From assembly GCF_003441595.1 (NCBI RefSeq), contig NZ_CP031848.1, positions 1,860,001 to 1,924,000 of the forward strand: DNA of 64,000 nucleotides, in the 5' to 3' direction. Positions within the stretch are counted from its first letter, which is position 1. Every line of letters begins with the position of its first letter. This stretch comes from Marinobacter sp. Arc7-DN-1 (lineage in GTDB: Bacteria; Pseudomonadota; Gammaproteobacteria; Pseudomonadales; Oleiphilaceae). The notes under the pieces are model-generated. The model was not told the origin of the DNA and searched no databases. It worked only from the letters and a program-made list of their open reading frames with translations. Made by a program: the position numbers and the translations under genes. Positions 30,354 through 53,850 of this stretch are shown here, one piece after another.

Positions 30354-31670
30354 ATGAACACCCCGGAACTGCTTGCCCCCGCAGGCACCCCTGAACACCT
30401 CGAAACCGCCTTCGCCTACGGTGCGGATGCCGTCTACGCCGGCCAGCCCCGCTACTCCCTGAGAGTAAGGAACAACAGTTTCAAGGATGTTGCAGCCCTC
30501 GGCTCCGGAATCGCAAGAGCCCATGAACTTGGCAAACAGTTCTACCTTGTCTCCAACATAGCACCTCACAACAACAAGGTACGCAGCTATCTGAAAGACC
30601 TGGAGCCGGTACTGGAACAAAAACCCGATGCCCTGATCATGTCTGACCCCGGACTGATCATGCTGGTGCGGGAAAAATGGCCGGACCAGCCCATACACCT
30701 CTCGGTGCAGGCCAACGCCGTTAACTGGGCAACTGTGGAGTTCTGGCGCAGACAGGGCATCAGCCGGGTAATCCTTTCCAGAGAACTGGCTCTTGACGAA
30801 ATTCGCGAGATCCGCGACCGGGTCCCGGACATGGAACTGGAAGTCTTCGTGCACGGCGCCCTGTGCATGGCCTACTCCGGCCGCTGCCTGCTCTCCGGCT
30901 ACATGAACCACCGGGACGCCAACCAGGGCGCCTGCACCAACGCCTGCCGCTGGAACTACAAGGAAGTCCAGCACAGCCATGACCAGACCGGCGACCTGAT
31001 CGCCACCTGCAGCGGCGGTGTGCAAGACGTGGAGCCAAAAGAGCTCCTGCTGGAAGAGCCCAATCGCCCCGGAGGCTTCATCCCCGCCTACGAGGACGAA
31101 CACGGCACCTACATCATGAACTCGAAAGACCTGAGGGCCGTCCAGCACGTAGCGGAACTGACCAAAATGGGAGTCCACTCCCTGAAAATCGAAGGCCGCA
31201 CCAAAAGCACCTACTACGTAGCCCGCACCACCCAGGTGTACCGCCGGGCCATCGACGAGGCCGTACACGGCAAGCCCTTTGACATGAACCTGATGGACGA
31301 ACTCGAAGCCCTCTCCAACCGCGGCTACACCGAAGGCTTCCTCCGCCGGCACGTACCCCGGGAATACCAGACCTACGAACAGGGCTCATCGTTCCTCGGC
31401 ACCCAGCAGGTTGTAGGCACCATAACGGATGCGGATGACCGATGGCTGACCATCGACGTGAAAAACAAATTCGCCCCAGGCGACCAACTGGAACTGATCA
31501 ACCCGGCCGGTAATATTCGTTTCTCCGCTGATATCATGGAAAACCGGAACGGCGAAACCATGGAGTATGCCCCGGGCAGTGGCCATATCGTGAGAATTCC
31601 GAAACCAGAACATTTGCCAAAATCTCTGGATTTCACCTACCTGACCAGAATCCTTCCCGCCAGCGAATAG
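30354..31670 (+). CDS. trhP: U32-family tRNA hydroxylation protein TrhP (YegQ)
   Basis: A 438-residue U32 'peptidase' family protein. It begins MNTPELLAPAGTPEHLETAFAYGADAVYAG and carries the cysteine cluster seen in GALCMAYSGRCLLSGYMNHRDANQGACTNACRW (residues about 165-200, quoted in pieces). TrhP works with a prephenate-dependent route to form 5-hydroxyuridine at tRNA position 34. Full length. It ends just before a large palindromic element. Confidence 0.9.
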   Translation: MNTPELLAPAGTPEHLETAFAYGADAVYAGQPRYSLRVRNNSFKDVAALGSGIARAHELGKQFYLVSNIAPHNNKVRSYLKDLEPVLEQKPDALIMSDPGLIMLVREKWPDQPIHLSVQANAVNWATVEFWRRQGISRVILSRELALDEIREIRDRVPDMELEVFVHGALCMAYSGRCLLSGYMNHRDANQGACTNACRWNYKEVQHSHDQTGDLIATCSGGVQDVEPKELLLEEPNRPGGFIPAYEDEHGTYIMNSKDLRAVQHVAELTKMGVHSLKIEGRTKSTYYVARTTQVYRRAIDEAVHGKPFDMNLMDELEALSNRGYTEGFLRRHVPREYQTYEQGSSFLGTQQVVGTITDADDRWLTIDVKNKFAPGDQLELINPAGNIRFSADIMENRNGETMEYAPGSGHIVRIPKPEHLPKSLDFTYLTRILPASE

Positions 31671-31682
31671 CAATTAGTTTGA

Positions 31683-31790
31683 GGCGTCAGGCGGGTCTGC
31701 CTCCCAAAACCGTGCATTGCCATGGATGGCAATGCCGAGCCCCCATGGACGGGTTCACGGCGTGTTTTGGGAGGCAGACCCGCCTGACGC
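31683..31790. repeat. Structured palindromic element A (shared core, unique arms)
   Basis: A 28-bp outer stem (31683-31710 with 31763-31790, perfect) encloses an inner hairpin GCATTGCCAT-GG-ATGGCAATGC (31714-31735) and then CCCCATGGACGGGTTCACGGCGTGTT. The inner hairpin plus the CCCATGGACGGGTTCACGGCGTG tract matches the core of element B (53731-53822, reverse orientation), while the outer arms are unrelated. It lies between trhP and the suf promoter. Confidence 0.85.
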
Positions 31791-31898
31791 CCCCTCCATA
31801 ATACGCCGTCCTGCCCGAGGCCAGACTATCAAGGCTATTGGCAGCCCCCTTAGTGCCCCAAAGGCCGATTAAGGTATAATCACCTCACGCACAAATTA

Positions 31899-31923
31899 AT
31901 ACCTGACTAATTTACTCTGGTAT
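31899..31923. promoter_or_regulatory. IscR type 1 binding site overlapping the suf promoter
   Basis: ATACCTGACTA-ATT-TACTCTGGTAT: an imperfect 25-bp palindrome agreeing with the IscR type 1 consensus at all but two positions. A TATAAT -10 box follows at 31926-31931 and CTGACT (31903-31908) is a plausible -35 at 17-bp spacing, so IscR bound here would cover the promoter. Predicted effect: repression when iron-sulfur clusters are plentiful. Confidence 0.75.
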
Positions 31924-31925
31924 TG

Positions 31926-31931
31926 TATAAT
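31926..31931 (+). promoter_or_regulatory. suf operon -10 box (TATAAT)
   Basis: Consensus -10 hexamer with a -35-like CTGACT 17 bp upstream inside the IscR-type palindrome. About 220 bp of leader separate it from sufB; the leader has no gene. Confidence 0.6.
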
Positions 31932-32150
31932 CGCCAGCCAGAAGCAACGGATTCAGCCTGTTTTTCTGCTTACTTTTCAGCATCAGGCCACCAGAAATCC
32001 GTCATCCAAAAAGCGATTGCAGGGCGCACTCACCGGATGAGCGACCACTGCAACACCCAAACTGATGACATCCGATCGACAGCCCGCCTATGAGGCTGCC
32101 GGCGACACCAAGGGCGCAAGCCCGCGATGAGAGAATACGGAGCGACGATC

Positions 32151-37404: not shown

Positions 37405-37470
37405 AATTGGGGTCAGATGAAATTGGGGTCAGATGAAATTGGGGTCAGATGAAAAGTTCATCTGACCCCA
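37405..37470. repeat. REP-like repeat locus 1 (three direct copies plus one inverted)
   Basis: Three tandem 16-bp units GGGGTCAGATGAAATT (the third diverging after GAAA), starting at 37409, 37425 and 37441, then the inverted TTCATCTGACCCCA (37457-37470). The last two form a hairpin. It sits between sufA and sufT and includes the start of the longer sufT reading frame. Confidence 0.9.
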
Positions 37471-37508
37471 CACTAATAAACACAGGATACAGCGAGGCAA
37501 GTCTGGGC

Positions 37509-38051
37509 ATGCAAGAACGGGAAGTGGTCCTGACCAAACGCGAGGTGGAAGCCAGACTCGTTCCTTCCGGGACCGAGATCATGATTCCTTCGGACACCTT
37601 CGTGACCATCACACAGTCACTGGGTGGTACCTTCACCGTTGCAGTCAACGGCAACCTTGCCCGCATCGAGGGCCATGACGCCGACGCCCTTGGCAAGCAG
37701 CCACTGGAAAGCAGCTTCGACACACCGGAAGACGGCACCGTCAACGAAAATCAGGTGTGGGAAGCGATGCGCAACTGCTACGACCCGGAAATTCCGGTTA
37801 ACGTAGTGGACCTCGGCCTGATCTACGAATGCAAGATCGAGAACGGCACCGAAGACGGCAACCACGTGTACGTCAGAATGACGCTAACCGCTGCCGGTTG
37901 TGGCATGGGGCCGGTGATCACCGAAGACGTCAAGCGCAAGCTCGAACATGTGCCGAACGTCGACAAGGTGACCGTGGAACTGACCTTCGATCCGCCCTGG
38001 AGCAACGACATGCTCACCGATGAAGCCAAGCTTGAACTGGGGATGCTGTGA
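37509..38051 (+). CDS. sufT: SufT, putative Fe-S assembly protein (MIP18/DUF59 family)
   Basis: A 180-residue protein. A C-terminal DUF59 domain has the motif NCYDPEIPVNVVDLGLIYE and the cysteine in TLTAAGCGMGPVI. It is linked to cluster transfer to target proteins. ATG 37509 starts MQEREVVLTKREVE. An in-frame ATG at 37449 would add 20 residues encoded by the palindromic repeat, so the shorter start is favoured, although its ribosome site is weak. Confidence 0.9.
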   Translation: MQEREVVLTKREVEARLVPSGTEIMIPSDTFVTITQSLGGTFTVAVNGNLARIEGHDADALGKQPLESSFDTPEDGTVNENQVWEAMRNCYDPEIPVNVVDLGLIYECKIENGTEDGNHVYVRMTLTAAGCGMGPVITEDVKRKLEHVPNVDKVTVELTFDPPWSNDMLTDEAKLELGML

Positions 38052-38062
38052 AGGTTGAAGGT

Positions 38063-38092
38063 GGGGTCAGAAGAAAGCCTTCTTCTGACCCC
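38063..38092. repeat. REP-like repeat locus 2 (compensated variant)
   Basis: GGGGTCAGAAGAA-AGCC-TTCTTCTGACCCC, a perfect 13-bp stem. It differs from the other copies by GATGA to GAAGA on one arm and the matching TCATC to TCTTC on the other, so pairing is preserved. It follows the sufT stop by 11 bp and a CGTTTTCCC tract follows. Confidence 0.88.
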
Positions 38093-38123
38093 GTTTTCCC
38101 CGCAGGCTTCAAACCGCTAACAT

Positions 38124-38153
38124 GGGGTCAGATGAACGCTTTCATCTGACCGC
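38124..38153. repeat. REP-like repeat locus 3
   Basis: GGGGTCAGATGAA-CGCT-TTCATCTGACCGC; one arm has a CCCC to CCGC change. It is the second copy in the sufT-sufE gap, and followed by GTTTT as a terminator would be. Confidence 0.85.
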
Positions 38154-38176
38154 GTTTTCATAACAGTAGCAACCAC

Positions 38177-42001: not shown

Positions 42002-42010
42002 TCGGAAACT

Positions 42011-42051
42011 GAAATTGGGGTCAGATGAAAATTTCATCTGACCCCAATTTC
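42011..42051. repeat. REP-like repeat locus 4
   Basis: GAAATTGGGGTCAGATGAAA facing TTTCATCTGACCCCAATTTC, a 20-bp perfect stem and the longest pairing of the family here. It lies 10 bp after the traF-like stop. Confidence 0.9.
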
Positions 42052-42127
42052 ACCGTTCCCGGATTTGCGAACCTGCCTCCCAGACCGGATAATCCACGCA
42101 CACTTTCCGAAAGGAATCAGGCATTCC

Positions 42128-45318: not shown

Positions 45319-45783
45319 ATGCTCCACGTGGTGCTGTACGAACCGGAGATACCGCCGAATACCGGCAATATCATCCGGCTGTGCGCCAACACCGGCTGCC
45401 AGCTTCATCTGATCGAACCCCTGGGCTTTAGCCTGGAAGACAAACAGATGCGGCGGGCGGGGCTGGATTACAGTGAGTACGCCCGGGTTAAGGTCCACAA
45501 GGACTACCCGAGCTTTCTGGACAGCGAGCAGCCGGAACGCCTGTTCGGGCTGACCACCAAAGGCAGCCACCCCTACCATGAAGTGAGTTATCAGGGCGGC
45601 GACTATCTGATGTTCGGCCCGGAAACCCGGGGCCTGCCGGCCGGTATCCGTGAAGGCCTGCCGCCAGAACATCGCCTCAGGGTTCCCATGCGCCCTGAGA
45701 GCCGCAGCCTGAACCTCTCCAACACCGCCGCGCTGGTGGTTTACGAAGCCTGGCGGCAACTGGGATTCAACGGAGCAGTGTGA
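45319..45783 (+). CDS. trmL: tRNA (cytidine/uridine-34-2'-O)-methyltransferase
   Basis: A 154-residue SPOUT methyltransferase starting [21 protein letters not shown], with the knot motifs FGPETRGLP and [20 protein letters not shown]. It methylates the wobble ribose of tRNA-Leu isoacceptors. ATG 45319 lies 6 bp after the thiolase stop; the longer frame is an overlap artefact. Confidence 0.95.
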
Positions 45784-45787
45784 AGTT

Positions 45788-45848
45788 GGGGTCAGATGAA
45801 AAAGGGGTCAGATGAACTTTTCATCTGACCCCTTTTTCATCTGACCCC
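45788..45848. repeat. REP-like repeat locus 5 (nested double hairpin)
   Basis: Two direct GGGGTCAGATGAA units followed by two inverted TTCATCTGACCCC units, so that an inner and an outer copy pair concentrically. It separates trmL from the convergent secB. Confidence 0.9.
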
Positions 45849-45868
45849 GTATTCGGAAAGTGCCAGCC

Positions 45869-51289: not shown

Positions 51290-52110
51290 AATTGGTAGGC
51301 TCCCTGCTGGCATTTGCCCTCTCGGTTGTGCCCACCCTGGTAGCAGCCGAGCCTGCAAAACAGGCGCTGCCTCCGACCATTGCCATCATTATTGATGACA
51401 TGGGACACAGCCTTCACGAGGGCAAGCGCCTGGCCAACCTGGATCAGCCGCTGACCCTCGCCTTCCTGCCCTACCGCAGGCATACCGATACCCTTGCCCG
51501 GCTTGCCTATCGGAAAAACAAGGAAATCATGCTGCACGCCCCGATGGCCAACACACGAAGCTTCGGGCTTGGCCCCGGCGGGCTGACGCCCGATATGGAC
51601 GAGCTGAGCATGGCAATGACGCTCCGGCGCGCGCTCCGCTCCATTCCTCACGTACAGGGTGTGAATAATCACATGGGTAGCCTGCTAACCCAGCAGCTCC
51701 AGCCCATGGACTGGGTAATGAAGGAGCTCTTTCGCTACCCGGTCTATTTTGTAGACAGCCGCACCATTGCTGCATCAGTCGCCGGTGATGTGGCTGCCGC
51801 TTACAGGATTCCCACCCTGAACCGGGATGTCTTTCTCGACCACGAACAAACCGAGGAGTTTGTCGACCGCCAGTTCAAGCTGCTGATCCAGCGTGCGCGG
51901 GAGAACGGCAGCGCCATCGGCATCGGCCATCCACACAAAGTCACCGTGGACTATCTGGAAAAGCACCTTCCGGAACTGGACGCCCAGGGCATTGCCATCG
52001 CTACCGTGAGTGGCCTCTGGGCCATGCGCAACAGCAACCAGAAGATGTTTGCAGAGGGTGAGAAGCAGGCCATTCGACCTGCTTTTGCACGTAAAAAAGG
52101 GGTCAGATGA
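51286..52110 (+). CDS. yibQ: Divergent polysaccharide deacetylase family protein (YibQ)
   Basis: A 274-residue secreted protein starting at GTG 51286, which overlaps the ctpA stop. Signal peptide to VVAAEP, then IAIIIDDMGHSLHEGKRLANL, HAPMAN and NNHMGSLLT. NodB-like fold, with activity unproven. Its last codons and TGA stop lie inside the palindromic repeat at 52099, so the repeat inserted at or created the gene end. Confidence 0.88.
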   Translation: MKLVGSLLAFALSVVPTLVAAEPAKQALPPTIAIIIDDMGHSLHEGKRLANLDQPLTLAFLPYRRHTDTLARLAYRKNKEIMLHAPMANTRSFGLGPGGLTPDMDELSMAMTLRRALRSIPHVQGVNNHMGSLLTQQLQPMDWVMKELFRYPVYFVDSRTIAASVAGDVAAAYRIPTLNRDVFLDHEQTEEFVDRQFKLLIQRARENGSAIGIGHPHKVTVDYLEKHLPELDAQGIAIATVSGLWAMRNSNQKMFAEGEKQAIRPAFARKKGVR

Positions 52111-52128
52111 AAGCTTTCATCTGACCCC
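52099..52128. repeat. REP-like repeat locus 6
   Basis: GGGGTCAGATGAAAG / CTTTCATCTGACCCC, a perfect 15-bp stem meeting at an AGCT centre. The left arm encodes the yibQ stop codon. It lies between the convergent yibQ and hisF and could terminate both. Confidence 0.9.
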
Positions 52129-52148
52129 TTATTCGCCGGCTTTCATGT

Positions 52149-53668: not shown

Positions 53669-53730
53669 ATTTTCTAGCTTCCTCGGAGATGGCCGATCAG
53701 ATACCGGAGATAGTCGCCCACCCTCCGCTA

Positions 53731-53822
53731 CGGGGAGCTACTGCCGGAACACGCTGTGAATACGTCCCTGTGAGCTTGCCTGCAGCATCCATGCTGCAGG
53801 CAGTCCCGGCAGTAGCTCCCCG
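53731..53822. repeat. Structured palindromic element B (inside the his cluster)
   Basis: A 17-bp perfect outer stem CGGGGAGCTACTGCCGG (53731-53747) / 53806-53822 encloses a perfect inner hairpin GCCTGCAGCAT-CC-ATGCTGCAGGC (53778-53801) and the tract that in reverse complement reads CAGGGACGTATTCACAGCGTGTT. That core aligns with element A (CATGGACGGGTTCACGGCGTGTT) while both stems are unrelated in sequence. Confidence 0.85.
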
Positions 53823-53850
53823 CATCGAAGGGCTGAAACATTCCGGTCCG

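Follow-up and report, generated by a model that had tools for sequence, protein, structure and literature searches.

What is the perfect inverted repeat that follows a gene near the middle of the window (the whole 64,000-nucleotide stretch of Marinobacter sp. Arc7-DN-1 DNA that was analyzed), and does its likeness to a second structure in the window reflect a function of the folded nucleic acid? The repeat, element A (31683-31791, plus strand), consists of a core of 53 nt flanked by the two arms of a perfect 28-bp inverted repeat. Its 5′ outer-stem arm (31683-31710, 28 nt) is 100% complementary to its 3′ arm (31764-31791, 28 nt), as the preliminary description had stated. Within the core, hairpin 1 (31714-31735), assigned from sequence and fold, carries the loop AUGGAU at 31722-31727, and hairpin 2 (31742-31753), assigned from sequence and drawn differently in the single-sequence minimum-energy fold, carries AUGGAC at 31745-31750; the 3′ junction UUCACGGCGU (31754-31763) covers alignment columns that are mostly invariant. 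RNA folding of the region 31665-31815 yielded -89.9 kcal/mol (z = -9.9), and none of 200 shuffled sequences reached so low a value. The element begins 12 nt past the stop of the frame at 30354-31670, which from its sequence we take to be a U32-family peptidase, and ends ∼360 nt ahead of a frame that we take to be sufB-like.

A dispersed repeat family with paired GGA loops

Element B (53721-53832, minus strand) lies between two genes that we take from their translations to be hisH and hisA, has the same orientation as these his genes, and presents the loops AUGGAU (53787-53792) and AGGGAC (53764-53769) within a covariance-model match of 86.2 bits (G000:C1:1913727-1913827). Its core is the best minus-strand match to that of element A (32 of 53 positions identical); the preliminary description had noted a core shared in reverse orientation. 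The exact 23-mer given there occurs only once in the window even when three mismatches are allowed, element B carrying a subtype of it. The outer stems had been called completely different and each perfectly paired. The latter is true of element A, but the arms of element B (53721-53750 and 53803-53832, 30 nt) are 87% complementary, and its stem is not perfectly paired since it contains 26 Watson-Crick pairs, four G-T pairs, and one mismatch over 31 positions. The stem sequences do differ, but a weak arm consensus is evident across copies, with GGG ∼16 pairs from the core and TTCC and AAAAC or GGGAC beside the core. Elements A and B are two members of one dispersed repeat family.

A covariance model trained on 19 copies identified 107 places at E ≤0.01 in the 4.3-Mb Marinobacter genome, 103 of them below 1e-7. 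After duplicates and opposite-strand echoes had been removed, the genome contained at least 107 copies, a lower bound obtained by scoring the best 150 of 1405 first-look candidates. The preliminary description had proposed such a search and had named the recovery of only two copies as an outcome that would refute its reading; with at least 107 copies found, this outcome did not occur. The unit of ∼108 bp comprises an unconserved outer stem of ∼27 bp enclosing two hairpins with ANGGAN loops, and the core between the arms is mostly 52-58 nt long. Copies are uneven along the chromosome: 7 of the 107 are located in 0-0.5 Mb plus 4.0-4.3 Mb, and most at 1.0-4.0 Mb, including 18 in 1.25-1.5 Mb.

Subtypes, named T1-T5, differ in their cores; hairpin 2 reads GUACAGGGACGUAUUCACAGCGU in T1, GCACAUGGAUGUGC in T2, and CCCAUGGACGGGUUCACGGCGU in T4, the subtype of element A; T3 possesses a third site, AAGGAG, besides the two loops. 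Among 99 well-paired copies, the loop fits ANGGAN in 97 for hairpin 1 and in 96 for hairpin 2. An ANGGA site occurs in both hairpins of 94 copies, the two sites being mostly 23-24 nt apart (23-25 nt in 74 of the 94); each of the other five copies either carries one change or has lost a hairpin. The N position was T in 66, G in 19, A in 7, and C in 1 case for hairpin 1, and G in 44, T in 44, A in 1, and C in 4 cases for hairpin 2. The inner hairpin sequences covary while the ANGGAN loops stay; for example, the hairpin 2 stem is CCC/GGG in some copies and UAC/GUA in others. We counted 154 cells with both sides changed, compared to 50 (SD 5.5) in shuffled controls and at most 44 in slid controls.

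Stem turnover and strand asymmetry

Across 100 copies, 75-100% were paired at each of the outer-stem positions 0-26, counted outward from the core, and the next three positions gave 48, 36, and 27%; the stem thus has a nearly constant length, but not a constant sequence. When 97 copies were compared with each other (4656 comparisons), the closest stems agreed at 24 of 27 positions, and the outer 15 nt never agreed at more than 13. No two of these copies share a stem, so no recent duplication was seen.

The imperfect pairs are strongly asymmetric. In a fixed 27-bp register, 99 of the 107 copies yielded 2557 Watson-Crick, 62 G-T, 6 A-C, and 48 other pairs (p = 8e-13 for G-T versus A-C); these copies had a stem of at least 19, the eight left out having short or broken stems, and their choice rested on a score that favors G-T over A-C. 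An unfiltered count over positions 0-26 of 100 full-length copies, summed by hand, gave 75 G-T and 18 A-C pairs. The excess was found in all four gene contexts (G-T:A-C of 10:1, 33:2, 8:3, and 11:0) and was independent of chromosome half, which makes host-gene transcription and replication direction unlikely causes. Because a G-T pair on one strand is an A-C pair on the other, the asymmetry means that folding is required of the strand with the GGA loops, and we conclude that this strand of the element is maintained in a folded, single-stranded form. The asymmetry is most simply explained by selection on an RNA; C-to-T bias or damage on the exposed sense strand may also be its source, as this too would yield a G-T excess.

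Comparison of congeners revealed how these stems change. Behind the same peptidase gene, the model detected the element at 18 of 30 genus loci, our own (L080) included, and at L106 a nineteenth element lies ∼1 kb further on. Some of these stems differ by changes that are fully compensated; element A and L103, for instance, are separated by two G-C/C-G flips only. The core at this locus is of T4 type in our genome, L084, L095, L099, L101, and L103, of T1 type in L086, L091, L092, L093, and L097, and reversed in direction in L094, which may be due to spacer inversion or independent insertion. At locus L102, an incomplete remnant of an old left arm precedes a second element, which is complete and has another stem, as if the stem had been replaced through a rearrangement. 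Between hisH and hisA, 8 of 30 loci possess an element; by the model, the remaining 22 lack one, 10 having a gap of 20-38 bp and 12 a read frame running into hisA. Here the stems of L306 and L309 differ by two both-side changes and one G-T. Many congeners keep a head-to-head pair of elements at gatB-rimO; others show deletions and fusions there. Short alleles (L085, L087, L088, L326, L332, L336, L338, and L349) are best interpreted as products of deletion or fusion involving two repeats or two arms. Clean empty sites with one arm remaining, which would indicate that arms are copied from the target, were not found among the orthologous loci. Three gatB-rimO loci (L325, L334, and L341) have a long variant with a structured-looking insert of ∼80 nt in hairpin 2, for which an Rfam scan returned no match.

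The 36 nearest orthologue pairs contained 149 changed stem positions: 91 both-side changes, of which 40 were transversions, 56 one-side changes (30 G-T, 3 A-C, and 23 other), and 2 changes between unpaired states. A separate pairwise comparison of orthologous stems, from which the L103 and L306-L309 examples are taken, used the 200 of 542 pairs whose arms agreed at 18 or more of 27 positions, and these pairs share sequences. The elements are inherited vertically with compensated stem change. Selection for structure, which the preliminary description had suggested, is supported by these compensated orthologous changes, by the G-T excess, and by covariation above the controls.

Genomic surroundings and distribution

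According to a simple gene finder, 106 of the 107 copies are intergenic. Their orientation relative to the neighboring genes was near random (+/+ 41, -/- 24, +/- 21, and -/+ 20), with a weak excess of sense copies in codirectional gaps (41 versus 24, p = 0.046). A sense 3′-UTR or 5′-leader device was therefore rejected as a general rule. Copies antisense to both neighbors (24 of 106) would need their own promoter; a search for flank motifs around the copies and a scan at element A disclosed no clear promoter. The flank motifs themselves, AAGTTTG ∼10 nt from the stem on the 5′ side and CnCCnAA within 12 nt on the 3′ side, were weak, each being above three shuffles. The numbers of copies by chromosome half and strand (28/26/28/25, the halves being set without a located origin) showed no dependence on the replication strand.

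Nine neighboring pairs of copies lie within 300 bp of each other, where ∼1 adjacency would be expected by chance, and all nine are head-to-head. At gatB-rimO, several congeners have REP sequences between the two heads that we take to be of GTAG type. A tandem element array was also observed in another genome (L285, G102:C1:92500-97500), with 227-bp units and GTAG-type REP sequences in between, and a Saccharophagus MAG (L194) has three element copies ∼153 nt apart.

The element was present in all 25 genus genomes searched, with 3 to at least 106 copies each, and in 3 of 13 genomes from other families of the order. A wider draw, for which the best 13 candidates per genome were scored, identified it in at least 112 of 293 genomes; these belong to at least 54 of the order's 118 sampled genera, and presence across genera is patchy. 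A scan with one core gave mostly gammaproteobacteria and many MAGs among the matches listed, including Marinobacter, Microbulbifer, Sedimenticola, Catenovulum, Pectobacterium, Zobellella, Rheinheimera, Vreelandella, Pseudomonas, Saccharophagus, and others. Copies from outside the genus retained the layout, the stem length of ∼27 bp, and an excess of G-T (76) over A-C (18). This set comprised 58 of 71 matches, including several tandem copies from one genome; matches were dropped if they lay too close to the end of a contig, were too short, or had fewer than 13 of 20 inner pairs.

Likeness to TwoAYGGAY and possible functions

Judged from its sequence and layout, the element probably belongs to the TwoAYGGAY type of structured RNA, here in the form of a dispersed repeat. 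The preliminary description was right that no function had been described, but the fold itself is known as Rfam TwoAYGGAY (RF01731), in the record since 2010 with its function not given. The accessible portion of PMC2864571 lists the motif without calling it cis-regulatory or a switch, that of PMC4333381 proposes from its loops that it binds CsrA, and neither portion mentions copy number, dimers, or orientation. In both structures, two hairpins whose loops resemble AYGGAY are enclosed by a long outer stem. They differ in that the second loop base here is T, G, A, or C rather than Y alone, and in that the present element is repeated at least 100 times, its loops being ANGGAN and its ∼27-bp stem having no set sequence. 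Element A scored 34.9 bits against RF01731, below the cut-off of 43. The same model gave five matches in the Marinobacter genome, the best at 42.6 bits and none above the cut-off, and all five fell on elements found independently by our covariance model. Among genomes of the genus and order, 15 of 24 matched, with nine matches in 8 of the 24 exceeding the cut-off, and 14 control genomes gave no match. An all-Rfam scan of 20 loci from our genome together, including that of element A, detected no TwoAYGGAY at E 0.05; most copies here are thus missed by the RF01731 model. A literature text search with the core letters gave no match, and a literature search, with supplements and most subscription papers beyond reach, recognized no description of the repeat. 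The present analysis adds to this picture how many copies there are and how they are dispersed, their dimers, the turnover of the stems, the asymmetry between strands, and the free N position.

The Rsm/CsrA motif is given as CANGGANG, with one degenerate position (PMC6849547). The loop and closing pair of the element hairpins fit this motif, paired motifs are present in hairpin loops, and the variable N of the loops coincides with the degenerate position. Selection with E. coli CsrA gave the consensus RUACARGGAUGU, which T1 hairpin 2 in our judgment resembles. The csrA product was found in 38 of 38 genomes searched and is encoded by a single copy in our genome; as these include genomes with and without the element, the presence of CsrA does not discriminate. 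Like CsrB, CsrC, RsmX, RsmY, and RsmZ, the element has GGA hairpins that would bind CsrA/RsmA dimers, a property that is putative for the element; unlike them, it has two or three sites rather than many, lacks a clear promoter of its own, and is dispersed in ∼100 copies. A genome-wide search for sRNAs of this group, covering RF00166 (PrrB/RsmZ), gave no match in our genome.

On balance, we lean toward regarding the element as a REP-like dispersed structured RNA with putative CsrA/RsmA-binding loops. Where the sense strand is transcribed, the ∼27-bp stem would present two ANGGAN hexaloops, across which one element could dock one CsrA/RsmA dimer. The long outer stem would protect or position the loops, and its sequence would be free to drift because only pairing matters, with template switching between the arms perhaps helping to keep it paired. 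Many copies might tie their host transcripts to CsrA and jointly buffer or titrate it, and copies would spread as REP elements do, intergenically, in either orientation, and as head-to-head dimers. The weakest point of the CsrA-binding RNA reading is expression, as copies antisense to both neighbors need their own transcription. A bolder version, which we consider rather unlikely, is a distributed genome-wide CsrA/RsmA sponge. In this version an RNA repeat, either selfish or domesticated, would spread through gammaproteobacterial intergenic regions with each copy a CsrA-dimer dock, and the summed transcription of ∼100 loci would set the level of free CsrA and couple unrelated operons, in place of or beside CsrB/RsmZ-type RNAs.

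The main rival, doubtful but the most plausible of the other explanations, is a REP- or MITE-like non-autonomous mobile element that is recognized as folded single-stranded DNA, with the CsrA-like loops as sites for the mobilizing protein and no host function. PMC3733652 describes REPs as sequences 20-40 bp long that bear a tag, GTAG or CGTC, and are often in head-to-head dimers, and notes G-T pairs in their stems. The element resembles these GTAG and CGTC families as a dispersed intergenic palindrome with head-to-head dimers and G-T in its stems, and its high copy number, near-random orientation, patchy presence across genera, nine of nine head-to-head pairs, and association with GTAG-type REPs at gatB-rimO and in the G102 tandem all agree with mobility. 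It differs in consisting of two ∼27-bp arms plus a core, ∼108 bp in all, and not a 20-40 bp palindrome, and in a copy number that does not track Y1 transposases. PF01797 had no match in 9 of the 19 genus genomes with at least 50 copies, and its highest count (22) was in a genus genome with only seven copies, and a Y1 transposase was therefore rejected as the mover; the transposase association considered in the preliminary description thus failed for the one family examined. Mobility also sits poorly with the lack of a shared stem among 97 copies, each of which is nevertheless kept paired, and with a G-T excess independent of chromosome half.

Other explanations concern the stem. Some bacterial stem-loop repeats act as RNase III sites or as 3′-end or intercistronic protectors, and a local role of this kind in mRNA processing or stability, with the GGA loops secondary, would suit a stem length that is nearly constant within and outside the genus, the position of element A 12 nt past a stop, and that of element B in a run of his genes. 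We consider it improbable because the copies antisense to both neighbors speak against it, as does the conservation of the GGA loops where a stem alone would suffice. It is highly improbable that the element is purely a palindrome in the DNA, or an inverted duplication of recent date, in which template switching alone keeps the arms identical with no selection on a folded strand. Such switching is known to homogenize arms and invert spacers (PMC8794818 and PMC8604942), and the many both-side changes between orthologous stems, with their transversions, are in its favor. A selection-only two-site model predicted 44-45% both-side changes versus the 61% observed, so a contribution from template switching between the arms is possible without being necessary, selection alone already coming near the observed pattern. 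Arm correction alone, in contrast, predicts about equal numbers of G-T and A-C rather than the 62 and 6 counted, and leaves aside the conserved loops and covarying inner stems. An intrinsic transcription terminator is scarcely credible: the strong GC-rich hairpin near a gene end fits, but a check of 31550-32150 for termination, as raised in the preliminary description, found nothing resembling a terminator followed by a T run, convergent gaps hold no excess of copies (21 of 106), and the conserved internal loops would not be needed.

If the preferred reading of a dispersed RNA with CsrA/RsmA-binding loops is true, a global regulator would be tied to a mobile-like RNA repeat. An orphan Rfam motif becomes a family with hundreds of natural variants, in which the stems vary throughout but the GGA loops stay the same, and this makes the 2014 proposal of CsrA binding directly testable in culturable relatives. 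The family is also a rich case of long RNA stems staying paired during sequence turnover. Other structured sequences were encountered near some copies: a group II intron match (L035:1397-1468, 48.4 bits, cut-off 40) lies ∼30 nt from the element at 2845529 of our genome, and a 6S RNA match (L036:382-563, 89.9 bits) ∼940 nt from the one at 2139763. The window also contains a separate repeat family built on TGGGGTCAGATGAA (37408-38160, 42010-42052, 45781-45854, and 52094-52133), which forms perfect or near-perfect inverted repeats in several places, of up to 29 bp with a 3-nt spacer.
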